From contig NZ_JACYHB010000002.1 of NCBI RefSeq assembly GCF_014837295.1, positions 248,001 through 312,000 on the forward strand: a stretch of DNA of 64,000 bases, read 5' to 3'. This stretch comes from Cellulosimicrobium arenosum (GTDB lineage Bacteria; Actinomycetota; Actinomycetes; Actinomycetales; Cellulomonadaceae). The first letter of the stretch is position 1, and each line of letters opens with the position of its first letter. A model generated the notes under the pieces. The model saw only the letters and a program-made list of their open reading frames with translations. It was not told the origin of the DNA and did no database searches. The translations under genes were made by a program, and so were the position numbers. Below are positions 2,679 through 6,832 of the stretch, piece by piece.

Positions 2679-3794
2679 ATGCCCCACGCCCTCACCCTGC
2701 GCCCCGCCACCCGCGTGCTCCGACGCGCGCCGGGCGAGGTGCAGATCGGGACGGATCCACGGTGGGCCGTCCGCCTCGTCGGCCTCTCGGCGGCCGAGGA
2801 GCGGTGGCTGCAGTCGCTCGAGCCCCGGTTCGGCGCGGACGGCGCCCCGTGCGCCACGACGGCCGATCTGCGACCGCCGGCGCAGCGCCGCGGCACGCTG
2901 CTCCGCCTGCTCGAGGAGGCAGGCCTGCTCGTCCGGCGTCGTCCACGCCGCCGCGTCAGCACCGGCCCCGGCAACGGTGACGCCGAGCTCCCGGTCCTCG
3001 ACGCGGTCCGGCACGACGGCGCGGGGCATCGCGCGCTCGCAGGCCGGGCACGCGCCGTCGTCGGCGTCGTCGGCATCGGCAGGCTGGGCGCGACCCTGGC
3101 CACGACCCTGGCCACGGCGGGCGTCGGGACGATCGTGGCGCACGAGACCGCGCCGGTGCTCGCGACGGACGTCGGGCTCGGCGGGTTCCGGCTGCGGGAC
3201 GTGGGCGCACCTCGTGGGCTGGCGCTGGCCCGGATCCTGGGAGAGGTGGCGCCGGGAGTCACGACGGCGTCGGGGCGGGTCCCGGACGTGGTCGTGGTCG
3301 TCGAGCACGACGCGGCGGACCCGGACCGGGTCCGCGAGCTCGTGGGTGACGGGGTGGCGCACCTGTCGATCGTGGTGCGCGAGGCGGACGTCGTCGTCGG
3401 CCCGTTCGTCCGCCCGGGTCTCGACCCGTGCGTGCGCTGCGTCGATCTGCGCCGTCGCGACGTGGACCCCTGCTGGCCCCAGATGGCGCGCCAGCTCCGG
3501 GACGCGGTCGGGCCAGGGTACGAGGACGCGGTGCTGTCGTCCGTCGCCGCATCGGTGGCCTCGGGTCAGGTGCTCGCCGCGATCGACGGCGACGTGCCCC
3601 GCACAGCCACGGCATGCCTCGAGATCCTTGCTCCCGACGCGGTGCCGCGGCTGCGCGGGACCACCTCGCACCCGGAGTGCGGGTGCACCGAGCTGCGCGG
3701 GGCGCCGCCGGACGGCACACCCCTCGTCCGTGCCGGCCTCGCCCCCCGGGCGACGAGCACCCGCACGTCAGGCGACCGAACGCGCATCGGCTGA
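2679..3794 (+). CDS. RRE/ThiF-like protein (TOMM cyclodehydratase C-domain type)
   Basis: 371-residue E1-like protein. Residues 1-90 look like a small winged-helix leader-binding module; a dinucleotide-binding motif GIGRLG starts near residue 131. Four cysteines, C250/C253 (CVRC) and C334/C336 (CGC), fit the structural zinc site of ThiF/MoeB-like proteins. In the TOMM literature such proteins present a precursor peptide to a YcaO cyclodehydratase, but no YcaO gene, precursor or exporter is near. ATG 2679 is preceded by GGAGG at 2670-2674. The 3' end overlaps the whiB7 3' end by 27 bp on the opposite strand. The position next to DUF2342 and whiB7 suggests a conserved housekeeping-type role rather than a peptide-natural-product cluster; function unproven. 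Confidence 0.7.
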   Translation: MPHALTLRPATRVLRRAPGEVQIGTDPRWAVRLVGLSAAEERWLQSLEPRFGADGAPCATTADLRPPAQRRGTLLRLLEEAGLLVRRRPRRRVSTGPGNGDAELPVLDAVRHDGAGHRALAGRARAVVGVVGIGRLGATLATTLATAGVGTIVAHETAPVLATDVGLGGFRLRDVGAPRGLALARILGEVAPGVTTASGRVPDVVVVVEHDAADPDRVRELVGDGVAHLSIVVREADVVVGPFVRPGLDPCVRCVDLRRRDVDPCWPQMARQLRDAVGPGYEDAVLSSVAASVASGQVLAAIDGDVPRTATACLEILAPDAVPRLRGTTSHPECGCTELRGAPPDGTPLVRAGLAPRATSTRTSGDRTRIG

Positions 3795-4244
3795 GGCGTC
3801 GGCCTCCGACGCCTCGTCCTGCGCCCGGCGCGCGAGCACCTCGGCCTTGCTGGGTCGGCCGCGGCCACGCTTGCGCGCGACCACGTTCCCGTCGACGAAG
3901 ACCTCGCCACCCCAGACGCCCCAGGGCTCGCGGCGCTCGAGCGCACCCGCGAGACACCCGGCAGCGAGGGGGCAGGTCCGGCACAGCGCCTTGGCCCGCT
4001 CGACCTCGATCGTGCGCTCCGCGAACCACAGCTCGGGGTCGTTGCTGCGGCACGGGAGCAGGTCGAGGACGAGGCTGTCGAACTCGGTCGTGTCCTGGTC
4101 GCCTCGCAGAGAGCTCGACGACTGATGGGGGGGTTGTGGTTCCCAGGGGCCGGATCCGCCCTGGGTCGTGATGGTGTCGAGCAGCGCGGTGAGCCGCACG
4201 ATGTCCTCCAGTGGTGTCCTGTCGTGTGTGAACGTCGTCGTCAC
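3768..4244 (-). CDS. whiB7: WhiB7-type transcriptional regulator
   Basis: 158-residue WhiB-family iron-sulfur protein. Four cluster ligands are visible: C65, C88, C91, C97 (C-x22-CxxC-x5-C). EPWGVWGGE follows at 106-114, and the arginine/glycine AT-hook RGRGRP at about 126-131 is the WhiB7 hallmark. In mycobacteria and Streptomyces, WhiB7/WblC binds the primary sigma factor and activates intrinsic antibiotic-resistance genes and its own promoter at AT-rich DNA just upstream of the -35. The GTG 4244 start is preferred because LEDIVRLTALLDTI follows; the N-terminus is longer than the roughly 90 residues of the tuberculosis protein. The gene is preceded by a uORF, a strong hairpin and a WhiB7-style promoter (separate entries). 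Confidence 0.9.
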   Translation of the reverse strand: MTTTFTHDRTPLEDIVRLTALLDTITTQGGSGPWEPQPPHQSSSSLRGDQDTTEFDSLVLDLLPCRSNDPELWFAERTIEVERAKALCRTCPLAAGCLAGALERREPWGVWGGEVFVDGNVVARKRGRGRPSKAEVLARRAQDEASEADASADARSVA

Positions 4245-4326
4245 AGGACCCCCGGACAGCGGCCTCGTCCGACCTGGACGATGCCTCCGGTGATTCCTCA
4301 CCGGCCTCGTGCCTGGAGAAGCACGA

Positions 4327-4358
4327 AGGCCGCGGGTCCCAGTGGGACTCCGCGGCCT
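4327..4358 (-). terminator. Attenuator hairpin in whiB7 leader
   Basis: Arms AGGCCGCG (4327-4334) and CGCGGCCT (4351-4358) pair, and the stem continues through G4335-C4350 and GTCCC/GGGAC to a 3-base loop at 4341-4343, with one bulged T. Read on the minus strand it is followed by TCGTGCTTCTCC, which is moderately U-rich. It sits between the uORF stop and whiB7, where transcription attenuators are known for whiB7/wblC. A second small hairpin (GTGC/GCAC, 4310-4325) follows. Confidence 0.7.
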
Positions 4359-4377
4359 GGACCTGACGTGCGGTCGG

Positions 4378-4533
4378 TCAGACCGGACGTGTCCTGGGAG
4401 CGGAGTCGGGTGCGGTGCGGATGCCGAAGGCTCCGCCACGGTGCGTGCGCACGCGGGCAGAGTTCCCCCCTGGAATCGCTGCGTTCGTCGCAGGATCCAG
4501 CAGGCTCGCCATCAGGATCTGGTTGATCTTCAC
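4378..4533 (-). CDS. Upstream ORF (leader peptide) of whiB7
   Basis: 51-codon ORF starting GTG 4533 (peptide begins VKINQILMASLLD). A purine-rich GAGAGAGGGGG lies about 10 nt upstream, a good ribosome binding site; an in-frame GTG at 4542 is an alternative start. It ends at 4378, 20 bases before the attenuator hairpin. Known whiB7/wblC leaders carry a short uORF whose translation favours the terminator, and ribosome-targeting drugs relieve this. The match to that arrangement is by position and structure, not by peptide sequence. The second half of the peptide is Arg/Thr/Pro rich. Confidence 0.65.
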   Translation of the reverse strand: MKINQILMASLLDPATNAAIPGGNSARVRTHRGGAFGIRTAPDSAPRTRPV

Positions 4534-4598
4534 CGTGTGCACCCCCTCTCTCCGTTCGGGCCTGCCTCTCGGCACGCCCCTCCTCCAAGGACACTCTG

Positions 4599-4637
4599 AG
4601 AGTAGGTCGCGCCTCGCAGGAGGCGCAACGTATTTAC
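4599..4637 (-). promoter_or_regulatory. whiB7 promoter with AT-rich activator site
   Basis: Minus-strand -35 TTGCGC (4628-4623) and -10 TACTCT (4604-4599), 18 bp apart, with the AT-rich GGTAAATA immediately upstream of the -35 (4638-4631). WhiB7 AT-hooks bind AT-rich DNA at exactly that place, so autoregulation is likely. The predicted RNA start near 4592 leaves about 59 nt before the uORF. Confidence 0.65.
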
Positions 4638-4662
4638 CGAACTTCTTTCGACGAGTTGTCCG

Positions 4663-6735
4663 TCAGTGCGCGGAACCGGCCACGAGGCCGAGCAGGACCG
4701 CGCCGTACCGGTCGATCTTCGCCGGTCCCAGGCCGTTGATCCGCGCGAGCTGGGCGACCGTGCTGGGGCGGGTCTCCGCGATCGCGGCCAAGGTGTCGTC
4801 GACGAGGACGGTGAACGCCGGCTTGTCCGTCTCCAGCGCGACCTCGCGGCGCCACTCGCACAGCGCGTCGAACAGGGCGACGTCGTACTCGCCGGTCAGA
4901 CGCAGCCGTGCCTCGCCGGGACGGGGTCGGCGCCCGGCGACCCGGCCCTCCGCCTCGGCCGGCCACAGCCCGTCGAGGAACCGGGTGCGCTTGCGTGTCG
5001 CGCGACCTCCCGGGTTGCGGGAACGTGCGAAGGACAGCTCGAGGTGCTCGCGGGCACGGGTGATCCCGACGTAGAGCAGCCGGCGCTCCTCCGCGACCGC
5101 CTCGTCGGTCTCCGCGAGCGAGATGGGCATGAGTCCCTCGCTCGTCCCGGCGAGGAACACCGCGTCCCACTCCAGCCCCTTGGCCGCGTGCAGCGACGCG
5201 AGGGTGACTCCCTCGACCGTGGGCGCGTGCTGGGCCGCTGCGCGTTCCTGGAGCTCGGCGATGAAGGTCGCGACCGTCGTCGGGTCGCCCGACGACGCGG
5301 CGAGGGCCGCGACGTCGTCGGCCAGCGCGACCAGCGCCTGCATCGAGTCCCAGCGCTCACGTGCGGCGCCGCGCGCCGCGGGCGGCTCGGCGGACCACCC
5401 GGCGGAGACCAGCACGTCGCGCACGGTCTCGGGCATCGGCACGTCGGGGTCCGCGGACCGGGCCGCACCGCGCAGGAGCACGATCGCGTCGCGGACCTCC
5501 TTGCGCTGGAAGAAGCGTTCGCCGCCGCGCACGAGGTAGCCGATCCCCGCGTCGGCGAGGGCCGCCTCGAACGCCTCCGACTGACCGTTGGTGCGGTACA
5601 GCACCGCGATCTCCGACGGCCGGGTACCCGCCTCGACGAGCCGCCCGATCCGGGCGGCGATCCCCGTCGCCTCCGCCTCGTCGTCCTCGTACGCGGTGAA
5701 CGCGACCGGCGGGCCCGACGGTCGCTGCGCGACGAGCTCGAGCGCCGTGTGCCCGCCCCCGGCCCGCCCGGCGCGGGACAGGAGGCGGTTCGCGAGCGTG
5801 ACGACCTGTGGGGTCGAGCGGTAGTCCCGCACGAGCCGCACGACCCGTGCGCCCGGATGGGTGCGGGTGAAGGTCAGCAGGTGGTGGGGGGTCGCGCCGG
5901 TGAACGAGTAGATCGTCTGGGACGGGTCACCGACGACGCACAGCTCGTCGCGCCCGCCGAGCCACTGGTCGAGCAGGAACTGCTGCAGCGGGGAGACGTC
6001 CTGGTACTCGTCGACGACGAAGTGCCGGTACTGGCGACGCACCTGGTCCGCGACCGAACCCTGGTGGGCGAGCATGTCGCCGAGCATGAGCAGGACGTCC
6101 TCGAAGTCGATGACGGACCGCTCGGTCTTGACGTCCTCGTAGGCCGTGATGAGCCGGGCGACCGTCTGGTGGTCGTAGCCCGCCGGTGCGTCACGATCGA
6201 TCGCCGCGCAGGCACGGACGTAGTCGTCAGCGGTGACGAGCGAGACCTTGGACCACTCGACCTCCGACGACAGGTCCCGGACCGCGACCCGGTCGACGGA
6301 GACCCCGATGCGCCGGGCCGCCTCCGCCACCGCGGACGCCTTGTGCTCGAGGATGCGCGGAGGGGCACCGCCGACGACCTTGGGCCAGAAGTAGCCGAGC
6401 TGCCGCAGAGCGGCGGCGTGGAAGGTGCGCGCCTGGACGCCGTGCGCGCCCAGCTCGCGCAGCCGCGTGCGCATCTCCCCGGCGGCCCGGGCGGTGAAGG
6501 TCACGGCCAGGACCGACGTGGGCGGGTAGGACCCCGTACGCACGCCGTACGCGATGCGGTGCGTGATCGCGCGCGTCTTGCCCGTCCCGGCCCCGGCCAG
6601 CACGCACACCGGCCCGGACAGCGCGAGCGCGACGTCGCGCTGGTCCGGGTCGAGCGCGTCCAGGATCGCGTCGGCGGAGCGCAGGACAGGAGGCGTCGAG
6701 GCAGGAGCTGAGGGTGGGCCGGGTGGTGTCGACAT
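4663..6735 (-). CDS. uvrD2: UvrD2-type superfamily 1 DNA helicase with HRDC domain
   Basis: 690-residue 3'-5' SF1A helicase. Walker A AGAGTGKT lies near residue 50, the DEYQD motif II near 240, then GDPSQTIYSFTGA (motif III) and the VEGVTLASLHAAKGLEWD block (motif V). The C-terminus, about 620-690, is an HRDC domain (LFDALCEWRRE...GLGPAKIDRYG). Mycobacterial UvrD2 joins the motor and HRDC through a four-cysteine module; here that linker has no CxxC pair and the region holds only one Cys. The start is ATG 6735 (an adjacent GTG at 6738 is possible). It is divergent from mrx1, an order I recall as Rv3198c/Rv3198A. It acts in DNA repair, probably unwinding 3'-tailed duplexes. Confidence 0.92.
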   Translation of the reverse strand: MSTPPGPPSAPASTPPVLRSADAILDALDPDQRDVALALSGPVCVLAGAGTGKTRAITHRIAYGVRTGSYPPTSVLAVTFTARAAGEMRTRLRELGAHGVQARTFHAAALRQLGYFWPKVVGGAPPRILEHKASAVAEAARRIGVSVDRVAVRDLSSEVEWSKVSLVTADDYVRACAAIDRDAPAGYDHQTVARLITAYEDVKTERSVIDFEDVLLMLGDMLAHQGSVADQVRRQYRHFVVDEYQDVSPLQQFLLDQWLGGRDELCVVGDPSQTIYSFTGATPHHLLTFTRTHPGARVVRLVRDYRSTPQVVTLANRLLSRAGRAGGGHTALELVAQRPSGPPVAFTAYEDDEAEATGIAARIGRLVEAGTRPSEIAVLYRTNGQSEAFEAALADAGIGYLVRGGERFFQRKEVRDAIVLLRGAARSADPDVPMPETVRDVLVSAGWSAEPPAARGAARERWDSMQALVALADDVAALAASSGDPTTVATFIAELQERAAAQHAPTVEGVTLASLHAAKGLEWDAVFLAGTSEGLMPISLAETDEAVAEERRLLYVGITRAREHLELSFARSRNPGGRATRKRTRFLDGLWPAEAEGRVAGRRPRPGEARLRLTGEYDVALFDALCEWRREVALETDKPAFTVLVDDTLAAIAETRPSTVAQLARINGLGPAKIDRYGAVLLGLVAGSAH

Positions 6736-6832
6736 CACCGCTGATTCTCGCAGCCGACACCCACACGCGGCACCAGGTCCGGAACCTCCGAGGGCCGTCC
6801 CCGGGCGGTCCGACGGTGGTGCGCGGGCGACG

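Follow-up and report, generated by a model that had tools for sequence, protein, structure and literature searches.

Background

In actinobacteria, intrinsic resistance to antibiotics that target the ribosome is under the control of the gene whiB7. Lee 2022 and Burian and Thompson 2018 are said, by papers that cite them, to have described the attenuator that controls this gene (also called wblC) through an upstream open reading frame (uORF) in Streptomyces and mycobacteria. Here we analyse the whiB7 leader found in a 64,000-nt stretch of Cellulosimicrobium arenosum DNA (contig NZ_JACYHB010000002.1, positions 248,001 to 312,000; hereafter the window, to which all positions refer). This leader is an ordinary, strongly conserved member of a known actinobacterial antibiotic-sensing switch; one feature, a recurring Arg-x-Arg motif in the uORF (Arg-Val-Arg at codons 27–29 in the window), may be new and is a candidate stall site. 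No paper linking Cellulosimicrobium with whiB7 was found in the literature searched.

The attenuator layout, in which the antiterminator is built from parts of the uORF and of the terminator, is described for Streptomyces and mycobacteria in passages of several papers (PMC10727445, PMC11550727, PMC9618640, PMC4128351, PMC13393426). For WhiB7 autoregulation, an AT-rich motif adjoining the -35 element and read by the AT-hook has been described (passages of PMC3905903), and in Streptomyces a GAAAWY motif lies 3 nt before the -35 element (passages of PMC7157823). According to a passage of a 2025 paper, no test had been made of whether ribosomes stall within the whiB7 uORF (PMC12121999). The attenuators of vmlR, lmrC and are5sc likewise combine a uORF with a terminator and an antiterminator and are opened by antibiotic-held ribosomes, but the uORFs of are5sc and tiaA have only 3–9 codons and act by start-codon stalling (passages of PMC12421871), whereas the uORF described here has at least 51 codons, and the gene downstream is a regulator here and an ABC-F gene in the vmlR, lmrC and are5sc systems. 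The leader peptide ErmDL arrests ribosomes that have bound telithromycin at its Arg-Leu-Arg motif, with Leu occupying the P site; for erythromycin the motif matters less. Like the uORF product described here, ErmDL and other macrolide leader peptides are short, carry Arg-x-Arg and precede a gene of the antibiotic response (passages of PMC8298421). The present locus differs from that of ErmDL, which controls an erm gene, in that the downstream switch is a transcription terminator and stalling is only predicted.

The whiB7 gene and its leader

The whiB7 gene (3768–4244, minus strand) starts at GTG 4244, preceded by the Shine-Dalgarno sequence GGGGG (4253–4249), and its stop codon ends at 3768. 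The deduced protein contains a WhiB domain (Pfam Whib, 57.7 bits) with the cysteines in CxxC...C arrangement, the GVWGG turn and a C-terminal AT-hook (RGRP, within RGRPSK). It matches the solved WhiB7 with 95 bits, the next among the other Wbl proteins being WhiB3 with 36 bits, and the alignment to the solved protein spans residues 60–135, including LCRTCPLAAGC, GVWGG and RGRPSK. No NCBIfam family matched the protein, it being not established whether that library contains a WhiB7 model. The genome contains 4 Whib matches. Proteins matching the window WhiB7 were detected in all 17 genomes of the genus and in all 200 genomes of the family that were searched (drawn from a larger group), although in 8 of the latter the best match was only at the level of other Whib proteins (E 3e-9 to 4.2e-7). 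These 8 genomes (G091, G110, G116, G121, G131, G138, G144 and G175) include incomplete assemblies, and the weak matches may reflect either loss of the gene or gaps.

Upstream of whiB7 lies a gap of 418 bp (4662–4245, minus strand) that separates it from uvrD2. The first-pass annotation of this DNA had placed a WhiB7-type promoter, a uORF, a 14-bp hairpin and whiB7 here in that order after uvrD2 and had read them as a whiB7 control cassette; all the parts were located on the minus strand in this order, which confirms that the observation is real. The leader has i) an AT-rich motif adjoining the -35 element of a SigA-type promoter, ii) a uORF that lies between promoter and terminator and whose frame is conserved in relatives, iii) a G+C-rich terminator hairpin on the 3' side of the uORF, with a weak U-tract, and iv) an antiterminator built from uORF and terminator sequence. 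With this order, the AT-rich autoregulated promoter, the sharing of sequence between terminator and antiterminator and a leader length of some 350 nt, it resembles the whiB7/wblC attenuator of Streptomyces and mycobacteria (passages of PMC4128351 and PMC10727445). The match of the protein to WhiB7, the recurrence of promoter, uORF frame and terminator among relatives, and the antiterminator pairing back the reading as a control cassette, and the leader is very probably an autoregulated, ribosome-sensing whiB7 (wblC) uORF attenuator.

Promoter

The predicted promoter, GTAAATACG-TTGCGC-18 bp-TACTCT, spans 4637–4599. It consists of an AT-rich box (GTAAATAC, 4637–4630), which is the predicted site of the WhiB7 AT-hook upstream of the -35 element, followed by the -35 hexamer TTGCGC (4628–4623), an 18-nt spacer and the -10 hexamer TACTCT (4604–4599), so that transcription would be expected to start near 4592. 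The Streptomyces form GAAAWY is matched with one mismatch (GTAAAT). The form AAATAAG-TTGTGC-18-TATGGT occurs at the same place in 13 of the 16 genus loci scanned, the other 3, including the window, being slightly changed, and a promoter of the WhiB7 form is present in 30 of the 34 related loci scanned; the promoter script detected none in the remaining loci L059, L062, L064 and L066. In the 3.95-Mb genome the strict pattern has a single match, and the reversed pattern, used as a control, has none.

Use of the promoter pattern to delimit a WhiB7 regulon was given up, as the strict pattern finds whiB7 only and the relaxed pattern adds a single site (L213 1516–1551, G000:C12:212434–212469), located before a deaminase-like ORF and probably due to chance. 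The region of the promoter spacer (4625–4608, minus strand) contains the inverted repeat GCGCCTC-CTGC-GAGGCGC, and in most genus relatives TTGTGC replaces TTGCGC.

Terminator and antiterminator

Hairpins and pairings were scanned in 146 loci (L005–L020, L035–L078, 12 of L079–L128, L129–L142 and L151–L210), a split gene (L021–L022), paralogues (L023–L034), most Streptomyces loci and weak matches (L143–L150) having been excluded; as L151 gave no match, 145 loci remained. The alignment comprises 82 distinct leaders with such a hairpin, after exclusion of L072–L128, of near-duplicates and of L069, L071, L132, L139 and L140 (doubtful or other hairpins). In 13 of its rows, which come from named contigs (L049–L068), the family is presumed.

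The terminator hairpin, AGGCCGCGGAGTCCC-ACT-GGGACCCGCGGCCT (4358–4327), starts 19 nt past the stop codon of the uORF and forms 14 bp with a bulged A4349 and the loop ACT. Its predicted fold has a free energy of -29.0 kcal/mol (z -5.7), with none of 200 shuffled sequences being as stable, and the terminator pattern occurs once in the 3.95-Mb genome (reversed-pattern control, 0). The hairpin recurs in relatives, a terminator being detected in 132 of the 145 loci, and all 14 invariant positions of the 120-nt window row fall within it in the 82-row alignment, whose rows were selected for having the hairpin. The two arms pair in 91.6% of cells, and 4 pairs are changed on both sides (mean of shuffles 1.6, the observed number being reached by 2 of 500). 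Directly 3' of the terminator, and overlapping its tail, lies another small hairpin, UCGUGCUUCUCCAGGCACGA (4326–4307, minus strand); letters similar to it (CGTG..CACG) are seen in several genus rows of the alignment. On the plus strand, positions 4308–4372 match the small trans-acting RNA b55 of Rfam with an E value of 0.0086, which could mean that such an RNA, rather than a leader, is encoded here. However, the match, at 30.2 bits, falls well short of the gathering score (70) and represents the conserved hairpin read in antisense, and whiB7 follows directly downstream; we therefore rejected the b55-like RNA, whose likelihood is close to nil.

The 5' arm of the hairpin contains a segment, strand B (GCGGAGTC, 4353–4346), that is common to terminator and antiterminator. 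It is the reverse complement of strand A (GACTCCGC, 4407–4400), which forms codons Asp43-Ser44-Ala45 of the uORF. When 4410–4345 is folded as the antiterminator, the predicted structure (-36.3 kcal/mol, z -4.1) includes an inner stem (GGACACGU/ACGU+GUCC and CGGUC/GACCG, 4394–4359) whose loop holds the stop codon of the uORF (UGA). Over the 82 leaders, A and B pair in 91.5% of 656 cells, compared with 32–48% for six slid versions, and 3 of the 8 pairs are changed on both sides, in 6 cells (means of shuffles 0.8 and 0.8, reached by 9 and 0 of 500). A4349 is A in all 82 rows and its partner in the antiterminator is U in 69, while in some relatives it is paired within the terminator too. At the third base of the Asp codon 79 of the 82 rows have C, and at that of the Ser codon 73 do, in an alignment for which pairing was not considered, as would be expected of selection acting on the RNA as well as on the peptide. 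The comparison thus shows the anatomy of the leader, its conservation and a two-state RNA pairing with some covariation, and it yields the exact strands of terminator and antiterminator.

The pairing is not identical in all relatives. A clade near Cellulomonas terrae (L063, L165, L176 and L184) seems to use a shifted pairing instead of A:B, with CGGACTCC or CGGACTTC opposite GGAGTCCG at L165, L176 and L184 and with GGACTCC at L063. The shifted words GGACTCC and CGGACTCC stand about 33–36 nt before the hairpin, in place of GACTCCGC. The arm reads GCGGAGTC here and GCGGAACC in Streptomyces loci, for which complementary words that could form the antiterminator were found at single loci only.

Several results weigh against the attenuator reading. 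A generic sigma-70 scan of 4200–4700 made no call, and the -35 and -10 hexamers are poor matches to the E. coli consensus. The tail that follows the hairpin (TCGTGCTTCTCC, to 4315) has only 5 T in 12 and is a poor U-tract, and a generic scan for U-tract terminators, also covering 4200–4700, called none. These last two results would suit a hairpin that is only a processing or pausing site, with control exerted by the promoter alone; such a site seems unlikely, since no other part of the aligned leaders is as conserved as the hairpin, its alternative pairing is conserved as well, and long U runs follow it in several relatives, such as L058 (CATTTTTTG) and L074 (CCTTTTTTTG). As to the antiterminator, 90.7% of cells still pair when partners are shuffled and the observed number of pair types is reached in 75 of 500 shuffles, indicating that most of the A:B agreement is plain sequence conservation; only 18 of 132 loci, taken singly, have a best A:B score above that of shuffles (p <= 0.05); and 18 of the 82 leaders lack the A word where it is expected, 2 more having no in-frame stop before the hairpin. 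Support for A:B, as far as it can be drawn from the alignment, is in its constant place, the slid controls and the few two-sided changes.

The folding model adds further points to be reckoned with. When only the 5' arm of the terminator has been made, the antiterminator has a probability of 0.65 without a ribosome or with one at the Arg-Val-Arg codons; this falls to 0.55 for a ribosome at the start and to 0 for one at codon 41. For the complete transcript at equilibrium, however, the terminator has a probability of 0.99–1.0 in all 7 ribosome states; since it is preferred in every state tried, switching has to be under kinetic control. With a 15-nt upstream footprint, a ribosome that has reached the stop codon leaves A uncovered and the antiterminator at 0.99, and therefore the exclusion of A by a terminating ribosome must be steric or happen earlier. 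Equilibrium folding with ribosome footprints alone does not separate stalled from terminating ribosomes.

An attenuator of the trp type, with four segments, would provide another arrangement, in which A is sequestered, in the absence of translation, by an earlier uORF segment (GGCGGAG, within the HRGG codons). In the window, GGCGGAG is able to pair with CTCCGCT, but no conserved 1:2 pairing that would sequester the antiterminator strand was found among 64 leaders, where the best upstream pairing of A averages 14.02 compared with 13.94 for shuffled sequences, and the fold in the window does not stand out from those of shuffles (z -0.83 and -0.24). We consider this arrangement very unlikely.

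The uORF and its Arg-x-Arg motif

The uORF (4533–4378) has 51 codons if read from GTG 4533 to the TGA at 4380–4378, and its frame, the place of its stop and its C-terminal codons recur in relatives. Two other in-frame starts are GTG 4542 and GTG 4575, the latter having a better Shine-Dalgarno sequence (GGAGGAGG), whereas in near relatives an ATG replaces GTG 4533. For the counts below, in which start codons were chosen by the script (GTG 4575 for the window), 62 of the 82 leaders have the A word in frame and 61 of these have a start; the other 20 were counted apart. These 61 uORFs are 28–85 aa long, with a median of 58, and 28 Streptomyces-type candidates have 88–118 aa, and therefore the uORF is not long for its kind, contrary to what the first-pass annotation had supposed.

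Over 28 pairs of 8 uORF sequences, the ratio of non-synonymous to synonymous substitution rates (dN/dS) was 0.5–2.0 and was near 1 for close pairs, which shows that the body of the peptide is not kept as a protein. For the same reason, and because it has no Pfam match, the uORF was rejected as a conserved small protein. The Cellulomonas-type uORFs of L052, L167, L170, L178, L189, L192 and L063 share a recurring N-terminal motif like APxxGxxQG.

Comparison of the uORF peptides across relatives for a conserved stall site, which the first-pass annotation had called for, brought out one recurring element. Arg-x-Arg (R.R) is found upstream of the antiterminator in 57 of the 61 related uORFs (mean of 500 shuffles 16.5, maximum 25) and in 32 of the 35 clusters formed at less than 50% identity (mean of shuffles 9.9), and it occurs in 22% of 687 45-aa segments taken from 18 coding-like ORFs of the window. 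The first Arg mostly stands 11–18 codons before the Asp, with Ala, Leu, Val or Pro as the usual middle residue. Since the middle residue varies, as do the Arg codons and their wobble base, R.R is not just one fixed RNA word. In the window, a +X+ sequence (Arg/Lys-x-Arg/Lys) is formed by the codons of Arg27-Val28-Arg29 (CGC GTG CGC, 4455–4447), a candidate drug-dependent stall site; the edge of a ribosome with Val28 in its P site would lie about 29 nt short of A, which would stay free. No report of Arg-x-Arg in whiB7 uORFs was found in the literature, as judged mainly from titles, the openings of abstracts and some passages.

It had been suggested that stalling at this uORF could differ because its second half is rich in Arg, Thr and Pro. 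This half proved to combine two things: the stretch PDSA...PV-stop is where the antiterminator strand and the stem round the stop codon lie, and the Arg part is the motif. The suggestion thus holds only in part: the motif is family-wide and does not set this strain apart.

We tentatively propose, giving the idea somewhat less than an even chance, that in the Cellulosimicrobium, Cellulomonas and Promicromonospora relatives the uORF carries a selectively kept Arg-x-Arg stall site, mostly 11–18 codons before the antiterminator, which would act as a positioned macrolide/ketolide sensor. The uORF would then be a tuned arrest peptide in which Arg-x-Arg stalls drug-bound ribosomes as it does in ErmDL, so that, in addition to the general attenuation, macrolides and ketolides would be sensed at one defined position. 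The numbers of uORFs and clusters with R.R, far above those of shuffles, its position, its variable middle residue and wobble base, and the stalling of telithromycin-bound ribosomes by Arg-Leu-Arg with Leu in the P site (in the passages of PMC8298421) all speak for such a peptide, but other results do not fit it well. Judged by dN/dS, the whole peptide is not conserved as a protein. The excess of R.R is weak elsewhere: among the 20 divergent related uORFs it is found in 11, not clearly above chance (mean of shuffles 7.4, maximum 14), although with these added the total is still 68 of 81 (mean 23.7, maximum 36); among candidates of other families, some with doubtful frames, in 20 of 39 (mean 12.2, maximum 21); and among the long Streptomyces-type candidates in 11 of 28. 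R.R is thus a mark of this group and not of whiB7 uORFs at large. When Lys is allowed, the contrast shrinks to 74 of 81 compared with 36.2 in shuffled sequences. Finally, CGT makes up 52 of the 134 Arg codons of R.R and 87 of the 901 in window genes (the rows being related, the Fisher value is only a guide), and therefore a role of the motif as RNA or through its codons is possible.

Other whiB7/wblC leaders differ in the peptide: the Streptomyces-type candidates are longer and less often have R.R, and the whiB7 uORF candidate of Mycobacterium palustre (L081) is Ala-rich, unlike the Arg-x-Arg uORFs of the window relatives. If the proposal is true, changes in the peptide, Ala-rich in the mycobacterial candidate and with Arg-x-Arg here, would let lineages sense different things with the same RNA switch. 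The candidate stall site named here is concrete and falsifiable.

Proposed mechanism

From the arrangement of the parts, we infer the transcription start, termination, stalling and drug response of the whiB7 attenuator as follows. RNA polymerase bound by WhiB7 would initiate near 4592. Ribosomes following closely through the uORF would keep strand A (4407–4400) unpaired, so that the hairpin at 4358–4327 could form and transcription would terminate before whiB7. A translation inhibitor or a shortage of amino acids would hold the ribosome earlier in the uORF, for which the Arg-Val-Arg codons 27–29 would be a good place, and A could then pair with B once B is made. The antiterminator, folding round the uORF stop codon, would allow the polymerase to read through, and the WhiB7 made after read-through would boost its own promoter.

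Neighbouring gene

The upstream neighbour of the leader is a uvrD2-type helicase gene (4663–6738, minus strand), the product of which matches the Pfam families UvrD-helicase, UvrD_C and HRDC.

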